The translations under genes and the position numbers were made by a program. From a virus: a DNA stretch of 50,550 nt. Shown here in pieces: positions 8,753-12,971 of this stretch; within the stretch, counting starts at the first letter, position 1, and each line of letters opens with the position of its first letter. Location: positions 1-50,550 of the IMG/VR virus record IMGVR_UViG_3300027719_000008. One strand, given 5' to 3'. Below the pieces are notes generated by a model. That model saw nothing but the letters and a program-made list of their open reading frames with translations. It did no database searches and was not told the DNA's origin.

Positions 8753-9814
8753 ATGAAATGGTTCAAGCACATGACGGACGCCTTTGATGACGAGAAGCTC
8801 GCGGCGGTGGTGGCCGAGAAGGGCATGGGCGGATATGGATTCTACTGGCGAACGCTGGAGATTCTTGCCGACCAACTCGACATCGGCAAAGGAAAAACGT
8901 CTGCTATGGTGCGCTATCCGATCAAGAAGTGGGCCGACAATTATGGCATGCAGCCCCGAACATTCCTTGATTTTATCGGATGCCTGCACCGCAATTCCTT
9001 AGTGAATCTCTCGCAAATCGGAAAATATTTTGCGATCTCGGAAGGAATTGGACGCTTGACCAAAGAAGATGTTTTAGAAATTGATTGTCCTAACTTGTTG
9101 AAAATAAAGGATAATCACACTTCGAACTTGCAAGCGACTAACAAGAAACTTGCAAGCAAAGAAGGAGATGTAGAGCTAGATGGAGAAGGAGAAACAACTA
9201 CCCCCCCTAAGAAAGCTAACGCTTTCTCCCCCCAAGGGGGATCGTCATTGCCCGAACAGCCGGAGAAAACTGCAACCGCCACCCCGGTCACGGCATTTTC
9301 CGAGAAAACGCCTACAAGCCCCGTAGACGATTCGGAAGCAGGAGATAAGGCAATCGCCTTACCTGCCCCATCCAAAGCGACTGGCGGGGCGCGCAAGCGG
9401 GTAAAAAGGGCATACCCAGAGAAGATCGCCGCGCTACTCGACCGGTTCGCGGAAATCAGGAAATCAGACGATAGCCGTGATGTTGCATCGAGGAGTATTG
9501 CAAAGCGAATCAAAGAAGGCCATAGTCATGAAGAACTCATGCGCTGCATCGAGAGATATCATAGGACTATAGAAAACCCCTGCTATCCATTCAAGGTTGG
9601 AAACTTCTTCGGGAACGACAAGCGATTCGTTGCCTACCTTGACGAAAACTTTACCGAACCAGAGCCGACGTTTAACCCGAACGTGCCAAGCATCTGGGAT
9701 ATGCTCCGCGAACAGGGCTGCGATGTGCCCACCAAGTACAGCGACGAGGACATCAAGTGGATCGAGGATCAGGAACGCGAGTTCCGTAAACCAAAGGAGG
9801 CCGCTGTTGGATGA
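8753..9814 (+). CDS. Phage replisome organiser / replication initiation protein (353 aa)
   Basis: ATG at 8753 follows AAGGAG of the previous gene's end. The N-terminus (MKWFKHMTDAFDDEKLAAVV, GGYGFYWRTLEILADQL) matches the DUF4373/Lin1244-like domain of phage replication organisers. After a low-complexity Pro/Thr-rich linker (about 155-230) there is a C-terminal DnaD/O-like segment (EELMRCIERYHRTIENPCYPFKVGNFFG). Such proteins melt or mark the origin and load the helicase. The next gene is a DnaB-like ATPase, as expected. It overlaps that gene by 8 bases. Confidence 0.82.
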   Translation: MKWFKHMTDAFDDEKLAAVVAEKGMGGYGFYWRTLEILADQLDIGKGKTSAMVRYPIKKWADNYGMQPRTFLDFIGCLHRNSLVNLSQIGKYFAISEGIGRLTKEDVLEIDCPNLLKIKDNHTSNLQATNKKLASKEGDVELDGEGETTTPPKKANAFSPQGGSSLPEQPEKTATATPVTAFSEKTPTSPVDDSEAGDKAIALPAPSKATGGARKRVKRAYPEKIAALLDRFAEIRKSDDSRDVASRSIAKRIKEGHSHEELMRCIERYHRTIENPCYPFKVGNFFGNDKRFVAYLDENFTEPEPTFNPNVPSIWDMLREQGCDVPTKYSDEDIKWIEDQEREFRKPKEAAVG

Positions 9815-10715
9815 AAAGCCAAGTACCCTCCTGAGTGAAGCCTACATGGATATCGTGGAGGGCCGCGTCAAACCCGTCCCGTCACCGTTGGGCCGGTTCA
9901 ATACCAGCATCGGTGGTGGGTTTCGGGAGGGCCAAGTGACTGTTGTGGCCGGAACAGCTGGGAGCGGGAAGTCGTATTTCTTGGTGCAGCACATGCTTGA
10001 CTGGACGAAAGCCGACATCCCGTGGAAGTACAAGCCGCTGGAGGATAGCAAAATCGACGTACTCCAACGTATGCTGGCGATCAACACGCATTCATGGGAC
10101 CCCGTAACGCAGACCGAGGAAGCCGCATTGAACGCCACCGAGCTGAGTCTGGACCCGAACAACATCACCGTGATGAAGCGCGCCGGACGGTGCATCGAGG
10201 AAAACACCATGGTCGAAGGCGTCGATGTGAACAACTGGGGCATGGTTGAGTCGTGGATGCGCCAACAGGCTGATGCAGGCCAGCGCGTGATTGTCGTGGA
10301 CCCTGTCAGCCAGATCAACTTCGTGCAGGAGTTCAAGCGATCCTTCGATTTGGAAAACAAGTTCATGCAGAACATTACCGGATGGGTGAAAAACTACCCG
10401 TGCCATATCATCCTCGTTTGCCATATGACAAAGGGCGACGGCGGCAATGGAAGCATCCGGGGGAGCGCAGCATTCACGAACCTCGCCCACAACGACATCC
10501 GCATCATGGGCCACGAGCAACGCGAAAGCCCAATCTTTATTCCCGAAGGTGGGAGGGATTCCGTGACGCACAACAAGACGATCTACATCTCCAAGGCGCG
10601 CAATGGACATACCGGGAAATCCATCGCGTGTCGAGTCGGCAATAATGGACCGGAGTTCATGGAGCTTGGGTATATCGCTCCGGAGGAAAAGAAGGGGAAA
10701 TATGGACGCAATTGA
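9807..10715 (+). CDS. DnaB-like/RecA-fold replicative helicase ATPase (302 aa)
   Basis: TTG at 9807 is chosen because AAAGGAGG (9793-9800) lies 6 bases upstream and no ATG fits. Walker A is GTAGSGKS (about 49-56), Walker B VIVVDP with D165, and a later IRGSAAFTNLAHNDIRIM resembles the DnaB motif around the arginine/loop region. It lacks the DnaB N-terminal domain, so it is a compact helicase core, as in many phages using a separate organiser. It may instead be a RepA-type ATPase (AAA_25). It should act at the fork with the upstream organiser. Confidence 0.82.
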   Translation: MDEKPSTLLSEAYMDIVEGRVKPVPSPLGRFNTSIGGGFREGQVTVVAGTAGSGKSYFLVQHMLDWTKADIPWKYKPLEDSKIDVLQRMLAINTHSWDPVTQTEEAALNATELSLDPNNITVMKRAGRCIEENTMVEGVDVNNWGMVESWMRQQADAGQRVIVVDPVSQINFVQEFKRSFDLENKFMQNITGWVKNYPCHIILVCHMTKGDGGNGSIRGSAAFTNLAHNDIRIMGHEQRESPIFIPEGGRDSVTHNKTIYISKARNGHTGKSIACRVGNNGPEFMELGYIAPEEKKGKYGRN

Positions 10716-11130
10716 CCTGCAAGAAAAGATCGACCGTATTGAGCAGCATACCAAGCGACATGCCATCGAGGGGAAGCGCGACCTTGCAGCTATCGCCAAG
10801 CGCGTGGACATCATCACTGAGGACGTGCCAGACAGACGCCGCGCGCGTGCGTTCATGATTTCGGAAGCGATGGCGTGTTCCCTGCCGGGGCAAGGATCAT
10901 GGCTGACGGATGACGATCTGATTCGCCGCTGGCGGCACGAGCAGCTTTCCAGCATCATCTGCGACCCAAGCACCACGTTCCAAGAGAAATGCGCGCTCTT
11001 GGAGATCGACGAGGACGATGTGCTGGAGAAGGCCGGGATTGTCTGCGAAGGACGCAGCCCTGCCGCTGATGCGCTGGCGATGTACCTCGTTGCCACCAGT
11101 CAGGTGAGGAAAGGAGCGTGCGTTGAATGA
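10702..11130 (+). CDS. Hypothetical protein (142 aa)
   Basis: ATG at 10702 follows AAGGGG and overlaps the helicase gene by 14 bases. The product is helical and charged (IDLQEKIDRIEQHTKRH, DDDLIRRWRHEQLSSII). No family recognised; its place after the helicase suggests a replication accessory. Its end overlaps the starts of both reading frames of the methyltransferase locus, so three frames are used near 11123-11130. Confidence 0.7.
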   Translation: MDAIDLQEKIDRIEQHTKRHAIEGKRDLAAIAKRVDIITEDVPDRRRARAFMISEAMACSLPGQGSWLTDDDLIRRWRHEQLSSIICDPSTTFQEKCALLEIDEDDVLEKAGIVCEGRSPAADALAMYLVATSQVRKGACVE

Positions 11131-11848
11131 GCTGGCTCTTTTCGCAGGCGCTGGAGGCGGCATACTCGGAGGCCACTTGCTCGGATGGCGAACCGTCTGC
11201 GCCGTTGAAATCGAACCATACGCCGCAAGCGTACTTGTCGCCCGACAGAATGACGGCATTCTCCCGACTTTCCCGATTTGGGATGACGTTTGCACCTTTG
11301 ACGGAAATCCATGGCGAGGCATTGTTGACGTGGTGTCGGGTGGTTTCCCTTGCCAGGATCTCAGTTGCGCCGGAAAAGGAGCCGGACTTGACGGCGAACG
11401 AAGCGGACTGTGGCGAGAGTTTGCCCGGATCATTGGCGAGGTACGACCGCGATACGCATTCATTGAAAACTCACCAATGCTCGTTATTCGCGGACTTGAG
11501 CGCGTCCTCTGTGACCTTGCCGCGATGGGGTATAATGCACGATGGGGAGTTGTATCCGCTGCCGACGCCGGAGCGTGTCACAAGCGTGAACGATTTTGGT
11601 GTGTCGCTTCCGACTCCAAGCGGGGTATCGAATCATCGTGCGAATCATGTCATGGGAAGAATGGACGAATGGGGAGGATCGTCAAATCCTTTCCGTGGGA
11701 CAGAGATTGGGAAGGTGCGCTGTGCAACTTTCGAGGAATGGATGATGGGATGGCCTATGGGGTGGAGCGACTTGACTGTATCCGCAACGGACAGATTCCT
11801 TGTGTGGCGGCACTCGCATGGAATATCCTTACAGGAGGAATCGAATGA
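11123..11848 (+). CDS. dcm: C5-cytosine DNA methyltransferase
   Basis: The 241-residue frame shows the ordered C5-methyltransferase motifs: motif I LALFAGAGGGILGG, motif IV GGFPCQDLS with the catalytic Cys, motif VI FIENSPM, motif VIII KRERFW and a late RNGQIPCVAALAW (IX/X region). It would methylate cytosine in phage DNA, probably against host restriction. The target-recognition region is short. The start must be TTG at 11123, because a TGA lies in frame at 11105-11107. AAGGAG at 11111-11116 is 6 bases away. A second open frame covers the same bases. Confidence 0.9.
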   Translation: MNELALFAGAGGGILGGHLLGWRTVCAVEIEPYAASVLVARQNDGILPTFPIWDDVCTFDGNPWRGIVDVVSGGFPCQDLSCAGKGAGLDGERSGLWREFARIIGEVRPRYAFIENSPMLVIRGLERVLCDLAAMGYNARWGVVSAADAGACHKRERFWCVASDSKRGIESSCESCHGKNGRMGRIVKSFPWDRDWEGALCNFRGMDDGMAYGVERLDCIRNGQIPCVAALAWNILTGGIE

Positions 11849-11855
11849 GCAATGA
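11127..11855 (+). CDS. Full-length overlapping frame within the methyltransferase gene (242 aa)
   Basis: ATG at 11127, 10 bases after AAGGAG, opens a 242-codon frame that runs the whole length of dcm in another frame and ends at 11855. Its sequence (MSWLFSQALEAAYSEATCSD, FSRLSRFGMT, PRWGIMHDGELYPLPTPE, EWMMGWPMGWSDL) resembles, from memory, a group of stand-alone phage hypothetical proteins with the same phrases. It may be a genuine overlapping gene, or only a shadow kept open by dcm. It has the only ATG start of the two. No function can be named. Confidence 0.5.
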   Translation: MSWLFSQALEAAYSEATCSDGEPSAPLKSNHTPQAYLSPDRMTAFSRLSRFGMTFAPLTEIHGEALLTWCRVVSLARISVAPEKEPDLTANEADCGESLPGSLARYDRDTHSLKTHQCSLFADLSASSVTLPRWGIMHDGELYPLPTPERVTSVNDFGVSLPTPSGVSNHRANHVMGRMDEWGGSSNPFRGTEIGKVRCATFEEWMMGWPMGWSDLTVSATDRFLVWRHSHGISLQEESNEQ

Positions 11856-12012
11856 CGACCTGATTTTCCAGAGCGACAACGTGGGCATCCGGCGCGACGG
11901 CCAGGTGGCGTTCCTTCGCCCGAAGTGTGAGATCGCAGCCCTGCGTGACATCGCCAATGAAATCAAACGGCTCCATGAGGAGCAGGAATCCAAGGAGGAT
12001 GACGGGAAATGA
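11845..12012 (+). CDS. Small hypothetical protein (55 aa)
   Basis: ATG at 11845 follows ACAGGAGG and overlaps the dcm stop (ATGA). The product has a strand-rich beginning (DDLIFQSDNVGIRRDGQVAF) and a charged helix (ALRDIANEIKRLHEEQ). Unknown; coupled to dcm. Confidence 0.65.
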   Translation: MSNDDLIFQSDNVGIRRDGQVAFLRPKCEIAALRDIANEIKRLHEEQESKEDDGK

Positions 12013-12242: not shown

Positions 12243-12495
12243 CATCTGTTGCGAGATATGCGGACGGACGCTCGACCAGAGACACACGCACACATCCGTC
12301 TGCGCATGGGATTCCATTTTGACGCTGGCATTGCAGCGCGAGGCACATGTGATGTGCGCGCAATGCGAACATGACATCATGCAGATACTTTCTATCCGCG
12401 CTCGTGGTGCCGCTGATCTACATAAGGAGCGGTCGGAGCAGGCGTGGATTCACGAAAGTCAGGCGCGGCATTATCCGGAAGGAGAGAAGGCGTGA
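12235..12495 (+). CDS. Cys-pair small protein (86 aa)
   Basis: ATG at 12235 is chosen because AAGGAG (12222-12227) lies 7 bases upstream; the longer upstream frame is off-frame to the previous gene. Two cysteine pairs, CCEICGRT and MCAQCEHD, about 45 residues apart could bind zinc. The rest is helical. Its end overlaps the RuvC-like gene by 4 bases. Confidence 0.65.
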   Translation: MISICCEICGRTLDQRHTHTSVCAWDSILTLALQREAHVMCAQCEHDIMQILSIRARGAADLHKERSEQAWIHESQARHYPEGEKA

Positions 12496-12971
12496 TTATC
12501 ATCGGAATCGACCCAGGATTGAGCGGCGGCATTGCGCTGTATGACACCAAGTACAACACATGGATAGTGTACGTGATGCCTGTTGAAAAGAAGACCGGAA
12601 TACACGTTGCGGAGATTCACGCACGCTTCTGTAGCTATATCCACGACTGGAGCGACACGCTGGCGGTCATCGAAAAGGTGCATGCGATGCCAGGTCAGGG
12701 TGTGACCAGCATGTTCACTTTCGGCATGGGCTATGGGAAGGTCATCGGACTCCTTGAAACGCTGGAGATACCCTATCTGAACCCAACGCCGCAGCAATGG
12801 AAGAAACGCATCCTTGAAGGCACCACCAAGGACAAGGACGCAACGATTGCGTATGTGAAGCAGCGGTACCCTGCAATCAGCCTGTTGCCGACGCAGCGCT
12901 GCACAAAGCCCCACGACGGAATGGCCGATGCCATCTGTCTTTGCGAATATGGGATGAAGGAGGTGAAATAA
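12492..12971 (+). CDS. RuvC-like Holliday junction resolvase (159 aa)
   Basis: GTG at 12492 follows AGAAGG. The protein starts with the RNase-H-fold motif IIIGIDPGLSGGIALYD (catalytic D7), has IEKVHAMPGQGVTS with E61, FGMGYGKVIGLL, a PQQWKK segment, and ends with KPHDGMADAICL (D142/D146). This order of acidic residues matches RuvC-type endonucleases, and the length is right for the family. It should resolve branched recombination or replication intermediates before packaging, alongside the YqaJ/RecT pair. Confidence 0.9.
   Translation: MIIIGIDPGLSGGIALYDTKYNTWIVYVMPVEKKTGIHVAEIHARFCSYIHDWSDTLAVIEKVHAMPGQGVTSMFTFGMGYGKVIGLLETLEIPYLNPTPQQWKKRILEGTTKDKDATIAYVKQRYPAISLLPTQRCTKPHDGMADAICLCEYGMKEVK

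Follow-up and report, generated by a model that had tools for sequence, protein, structure and literature searches.

A putative two-subunit cytosine-5 methyltransferase from almost fully overlapping phage genes

Split cytosine-5 methyltransferases and the locus described here

M.EcoHK31I and M.AquI are proven cytosine-5 methyltransferases (C5-MTases) of two polypeptides that are split in a corresponding region (PMC3404938). M.EcoHK31I (YGGCCR) carries motifs I to VIII and X on its larger subunit and motif IX on a smaller polypeptide, while in M.AquI (CYCGRG) the natural break follows motif VIII, and a separate chain bears motif IX along with part of the recognition region (PMC3404938). The division of a C5-MTase such that motif IX sits on a partner chain is already known from M.EcoHK31I. 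Here, we describe a locus in a 50,550-base virus record (the window, i.e., the whole stretch of DNA analysed) that very probably encodes a two-subunit C5-MTase from almost fully overlapping genes, a dcm-like alpha frame and a beta frame in +1, with a predicted joint activity.

Compared at the level of motifs, the locus resembles M.EcoHK31I in having motifs I to VIII and X in alpha and motif IX on the second polypeptide. The beta gene of M.EcoHK31I also lies inside its alpha gene in a different frame, but in the window beta begins 4 nt behind the alpha start and extends over the entire alpha gene, and the conserved recognition segment lies in beta, whereas the recognition domain of M.EcoHK31I is predicted in the larger subunit. 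With M.AquI the locus shares a second polypeptide bearing part of the recognition region and motif IX, but motif X is found on the small subunit of M.AquI and in alpha in the window; M.AquI-like placement of both IX and X in beta is seen in the relatives L055, L061, and phages Dylan and Peaches. Annotated phage pairs can also be compared: Paenibacillus phage Jacopo has nested genes (gp56/gp57, both annotated as DNA cytosine methyltransferase) with motifs I to VIII and X in alpha and LNPDWVECLMGFPIGW in beta, though beta begins about 200 nt inside alpha and its N-terminus differs. Similarly, mycobacteriophages Peaches (gp77/gp76) and Dylan (gp7/gp6), with both genes of each pair annotated as DNA methylase, combine an alpha core with a beta in the +1 frame that carries the recognition segment and motif IX, but their overlap is only partial and motif X lies in beta. 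One-piece C5-MTases (M.HhaI, M.HaeIII, and chromosomal relatives) share the large-domain fold and motifs I to VIII, but are single chains with their own motif IX and recognition domain, and stops are not depleted in their +1 frame. What is different here is the near-total overlap, the recognition segment in beta, a motif X that relatives carry in one frame or the other, and how widely the family is spread. We found no description of the phage alpha/beta overlap arrangement in the open-access literature searched; the ShiLan out-of-frame HNH insertion in phage methylases (PMC11855218) is a different phenomenon.

Layout of the locus and the catalytic half

The methylase locus has a DnaB-like helicase (9771 to 10712) and a RuvC-like resolvase (12489 to 12968) as neighbours in the virus record. 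The frame boundaries in the first-pass annotation proved exact in the letters: alpha (241 residues) runs from TTG (11123 to 11125) to TGA (11846 to 11848) and beta (242 residues) from ATG (11127 to 11129) to TGA (11853 to 11855), with a single AAGGAG placed ahead of both starts as that annotation had described (Table 1). Its reading of the positions around 11123 to 11130 also holds, since the TGA of the upstream gene (11128 to 11130) overlaps the beta ATG and three frames are thus used at that point. A further TGA at 11124 to 11126, immediately 5' of the beta ATG, closes the beta frame, and 124 homologues show a G-rich stretch at -13 to -9 relative to this ATG. On the minus strand, a 334-codon open frame (window positions 10092 to 11096) lies opposite the helicase gene and the gene that precedes the methylase, in antisense to both; long antisense frames are numerous in the window.

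Table 1. Features of the overlapping methylase locus (window coordinates)
Feature	Position	Strand	Remarks
Shine-Dalgarno AAGGAG common to alpha and beta	11111..11116	+	6 nt to alpha TTG, 10 nt to beta ATG
alpha (dcm), predicted C5-cytosine methyltransferase catalytic subunit	11123..11848	+	241 aa, TTG start; motifs I to VIII and X, without motif IX
alpha motif I (LALFAGAGGG)	11132..11161	+	invariant columns
alpha motif IV (GGFPCQDLS, catalytic Cys77)	11339..11365	+	invariant columns; alignment to M.HhaI
alpha motif VI (ENSPML)	11465..11482	+	invariant columns
alpha motif VIII (HKRERFW)	11579..11599	+	invariant columns
alpha motif X (IRNGQIPCVAALAWNILT)	11780..11833	+	invariant columns; near alpha end
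beta, predicted recognition subunit, +1 frame	11127..11855	+	242 aa, ATG start
beta N-terminal extension over alpha catalytic core	11127..11606	+	under selection
beta recognition segment (LPTPSGVSNHRANHVMGRMDEWGGSSNPFRGTEIGK)	11607..11714	+	beta is the conserved frame there
beta motif IX (VRCATFEEWMMGWPMGWSDL)	11715..11774	+	4-fold alpha sites; synteny with motif X in relatives
ATGA, overlap of beta start and upstream-gene stop	11127..11130	+	upstream TGA at 11128..11130
Next gene	11845..12012	+	ATG at 11845 overlaps alpha stop (ATGA) and beta tail

Alpha has the hallmarks of a C5-MTase, with motifs I, IV (PCQ), VI, and VIII in order and in invariant columns. Its AF2 model (pTM 0.74) finds M.HhaI and M.HaeIII as top fold matches (M.HhaI with E 2.2e-13), and phrog_363 covers residues 3 to 234. 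The Pfam profile PF00145 matches residues 5 to 169 only (E 3.6e-30) and ends at profile position 167 of 324. By this match and by motif pattern, canonical motif IX and the recognition domain are absent from the alpha chain, and an IX-like block is found in the +1 frame.

Openness and conservation of both frames

Scans of viral contigs returned at least 578 relatives for the beta query and 399 for the alpha query, from which we drew 129 distinct usable loci. Of these 129 viral homologues, 125 keep beta open across alpha, compared with 2.4 expected from codon shuffles that preserve the alpha protein. For the window alone, beta stayed open in 0.54% of 50,000 synonymous recodings of the alpha gene (using its own codon usage and counting openness from the beta ATG), so that the single case is by itself weak evidence. 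Only one of 55 distinct loci fetched via alpha similarity alone is closed (L090), which shows that the openness is no artefact of beta-based searching. The two starts are 4 nt apart in 132 of 134 loci and, among 124 loci, the beta start codon is ATG in ca. 98%, while alpha starts with ATG, GTG, or TTG in 106 and has none of these at that place in 18. A lone stop interrupts alpha with beta intact in L051 and L153, and beta with alpha intact in L005, L075, L076, and L090; such loci may be decayed, mis-sequenced, or really need or keep one subunit only.

Because alpha codon position 3 is position 2 of beta, any alpha-silent third-position change alters beta. Fourfold degenerate alpha sites have an identity of 0.60, compared with 0.31 in shuffles and 0.27 from composition, and are 0.92 identical at alpha residues 201 to 220 beneath the FEEWMMGWPMGW block of beta; beta identity lies above shuffles in all 15-residue bins. 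As internal control we used C/T at position 1 of Leu CTR/TTR codons, which is silent in alpha and in beta. Identity is near saturation at this position (0.577 versus 0.561 expected; excess 0.019, 95% -0.004 to 0.07, column bootstrap) in contrast to position 3 of Leu codons, which is silent in alpha but not in beta (0.820 versus 0.636 expected; excess 0.178, 0.093 to 0.266, column bootstrap). The contrast is weaker but unchanged in direction in the 27 alpha-fetched sequences alone, and it falls below the resolution of the column bootstrap in short sub-regions. Recombination, RNA structure, or plain lack of saturation would each lift Leu positions 1 and 3 alike. Across eight loci that share GRxDEWGGSxNP, identity over the recognition segment amounts to 75% for beta and 43% for alpha, and alpha codon positions 1, 2, and 3 show identities of 0.47, 0.78, and 0.83, with position 1 (position 3 of beta) evolving fastest. 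By its higher identity and these position rates, beta is the governing frame in this segment.

Chromosomal C5-MTases without beta IX, an independent sample of 21 genes, behave differently: their +1 stops are not depleted between motifs I and VIII (ca. 135 versus ca. 138 expected), and none of the 21 has an open +1 frame. Several of them have a recognisable canonical motif IX, and the others a motif IX that is missed by the pattern but visible by eye. This chromosomal sample is the clean negative control; a Streptococcus-phage set planned for that purpose is itself positive over the core, and a Staphylococcus-phage set is so in part (see below). The beta motif-IX pattern does occur in the +1 frame of seven of eight short chromosomal alphas (L503, L506, L507, L511, L512, L515, L518, and L540).

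Could the beta frame merely shadow the conserved dcm gene, with its openness a matter of composition and its similarity a by-product of alpha conservation? The chance openness of one gene of such composition (0.54% of recodings) would allow this for a single locus, but not 125 open frames where 2.4 are expected, and the one-piece chromosomal relatives lack any depletion of stops. Conservation of beta-changing sites next to near-saturation at sites silent in both frames, as well as the better conservation of beta than alpha in the recognition segment, also run against it. We consider this explanation refuted by the contrast between Leu positions 1 and 3 together with the reversed codon-position rates, and its probability as negligible. 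Judged by these patterns, alpha and beta are both under purifying selection and constitute an overlapping dual-coding pair, as the first-pass annotation had proposed; the comparison of synonymous sites that it suggested shows alpha-silent, beta-changing sites to be conserved across homologues. Stops in the second frame of homologous dcm genes would have counted against its proposal, but homologues without their own motif IX retain an open second frame. The beta phrases that it described as recurring in other phage proteins are real as well (tblastn matches in 37 phage records and at least 578 viral contigs), and the search for independent homologues of beta that it suggested leads to partly independent ones, with partial overlap, in mycobacteriophages and Gordonia phage GordTnk2.

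Motif IX, target recognition, and the proposed enzyme

The C-terminus of beta contains a variable segment after a conserved (L/W)PTP, followed by the consensus LNPxWxEWLMGWPxGW, and its IX-like FEEWMMGWPMGW block is identified as motif IX on four grounds. In the beta proteins of Dylan, Peaches, EmyBug, and GordTnk2, which overlap alpha only partly, the IX-like block and motif X (IIGNGVCPQQA and similar) follow each other in a single frame with a short gap between them, and alpha ends after motif VIII. Alpha also stops early in L055 and L061, where beta carries IX and motif X; the latter reads RVDRLKAIGNGQVP in these loci, shifted from the alpha to the beta frame, with ca. 100 extra residues between IX and X. 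The form found in L540 (LTPEDGEELMGYPQEW) is intermediate toward the RRLTPRECARLMGF of one-piece enzymes. When beta was compared to one-piece enzymes with hhalign, the best match fell on motif IX without significance (E 0.32), and the motif IX call therefore leans on synteny with motif X. Complementarity was tabulated for a subset of 209 motif-bearing loci, the strict alpha-motif pattern having missed 188 loci: 33 have canonical IX in alpha and none of these has beta IX, while of the 176 that lack canonical IX in alpha, 149 show beta IX in the +1 frame and 27 show neither by simple pattern.

Profile searches of Pfam and NCBIfam found no family for beta, and a PDB fold search with its low-confidence AF2 model (pTM 0.27) gave no match. 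Beta is matched by phrog_1008 and phrog_26627, and together with phrog_35493 these families match beta or its C-terminus in nearly all members. These three families are labelled only as DNA methyltransferase or unknown, with neither the overlap nor a subunit role stated. The N-terminal 160 residues of beta are constrained, and its N-terminal two thirds contain no recognisable methyltransferase motif. In Paracoccus phage KLEP18-1 (L167:921-1742), the beta segment is 69.8% identical to that of the window over 53 aa and alpha is only distantly related. This pattern is suggestive of a recognition cassette that extends over the two frames and can be exchanged.

At the level of sequence, what speaks for a split enzyme is that both frames are coding and co-conserved, that their motifs are complementary, that motif X moves between frames, and that the recognition segment lies in beta. 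Alternatively, beta could regulate or inhibit the methyltransferase as a separate protein instead of being a structural half of it. The selected yet motif-free N-terminal two thirds of beta would fit such a function, as would the constrained +1 frame in Streptococcus-phage methylases that have a motif IX of their own. However, the IX-like block occurs in beta exactly where alpha has none, beta can hold motif X too, and its variable segment is positioned at the site of the C5-MTase recognition domain, so that we regard a purely regulatory beta as improbable. Even less credible, in our view, is a programmed frameshift by which the alpha core would be continued, within one protein, by the recognition segment and motif IX of beta. 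It would be an economical way to join the motifs of one enzyme that are split over two frames of one message, but the beta frame has a conserved ATG to itself, its constraint already exists 5' of every point at which a shift would be useful, motif X in alpha would require a second shift back, and annotated relatives have separate starts.

We therefore favour two separate subunits, and we infer an enzyme complex, its activity, the mechanism of initiation, and a biological role along the following lines. Alpha would form the large domain with AdoMet binding, catalytic Cys, and motif X, and beta would supply the small domain, made up of motif IX and the target-recognition segment, and add an N-terminal extension specific to its lineage. 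Both subunits would be expected from one message, with alpha initiating at a weak TTG at optimal spacing from the single ribosome-binding site, and beta from the same site at an ATG at longer spacing, coupled to the upstream-gene stop via the ATGA. If M.AquI and M.EcoHK31I are taken as a model, a complex of alpha and beta is most likely, in which beta sets the target site. The complex would be a single orphan modification enzyme of the phage replication region and would methylate phage DNA at this site, probably for protection from host restriction. The first-pass annotation had considered the second product to be of unknown kind, possibly a partner or inhibitor of the methyltransferase. The presence of recognition segment and motif IX, both missing from alpha, in the beta C-terminus means that beta is not an unrelated protein and favours the partner, while we found no support for an inhibitor. 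It is conceivable, though we rather doubt it, that beta does more than lend motif IX and has a further conserved function, in which case overprinting of the core would be general and mostly unannotated in phage C5-methylases. The constraint on the N-terminal 160 residues of beta, which overlap the catalytic core, would fit this, as would the constrained +1 frame (residues ca. 31 to 185) over the core of Streptococcus-phage methylases that possess a motif IX already.

Distribution, annotation, and other phage methylases with +1 frames

Relatives are found in phages of Pseudomonas, Vibrio, Salmonella, Klebsiella, Acinetobacter, Microcystis, and others, on plasmids of Acinetobacter and Leptospira, and in 121 GTDB genome stretches, mostly of Gammaproteobacteria and Betaproteobacteria. 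The arrangement is thus common, with hundreds of phages and prophages, and not rare as had initially been supposed. Database records mostly annotate a single frame, which is beta, labelled a hypothetical protein, in phPA-G and Vibrio phage 1.236.O and alpha in Salmonella S9-5; both frames are annotated only exceptionally, as in Paenibacillus phage Jacopo and the mycobacteriophage pairs. Gene 58 of phage N15 (L263:1003-1998) and a gene of Sulfitobacter phage phiGT1_51 (L265:1063-1800) each have an annotated frame without IX and a +1 frame with GGQLNPHHSRWLMGLPVEW and CVGAMMGFPPGW, respectively, and by sequence both look like unrecognised alpha/beta genes.

Many short cytosine methylases of phages and prophages that are annotated as complete, or whose beta is annotated as hypothetical, would by sequence be half of a two-subunit enzyme. 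The annotated gene cloned alone may consequently yield no activity, and a construct that retains the natural DNA may hide the synthesis of a second protein. These loci amount to many natural gene pairs that overlap almost completely, have one known enzymatic fold, and include a motif that has moved between frames; they lend themselves well to work on overprinting, on the splitting of enzymes into subunits, and on the exchange of recognition cassettes.

Streptococcus-phage methylases with their own canonical motif IX (L262:1045-2298 and L271-L349) show a +1 frame of 168 to 186 open codons over the catalytic core. In this set of 29 sequences, fourfold identity is 0.54 to 0.73 at residues 31 to 180 compared with 0.27 in shuffles, the flanks are saturated (0.30 to 0.34 in residues 1 to 30 and beyond 211), and Leu position 3 has an identity of 0.858 versus 0.559 at position 1. 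The C-terminal end of the +1 product reads ..ILEAxVDxKYYLS, and the annotation of Streptococcus phage P0091 includes the nested +1 gene, which corresponds to phrog_16143. Staphylococcus-phage methylases (L264 and L453-L484) display a weaker form of this signal, with the frame closed outside residues 81 to 160 and, within these residues, 0.27 and 0.18 +1 stops per sequence versus 2.27 and 1.55.
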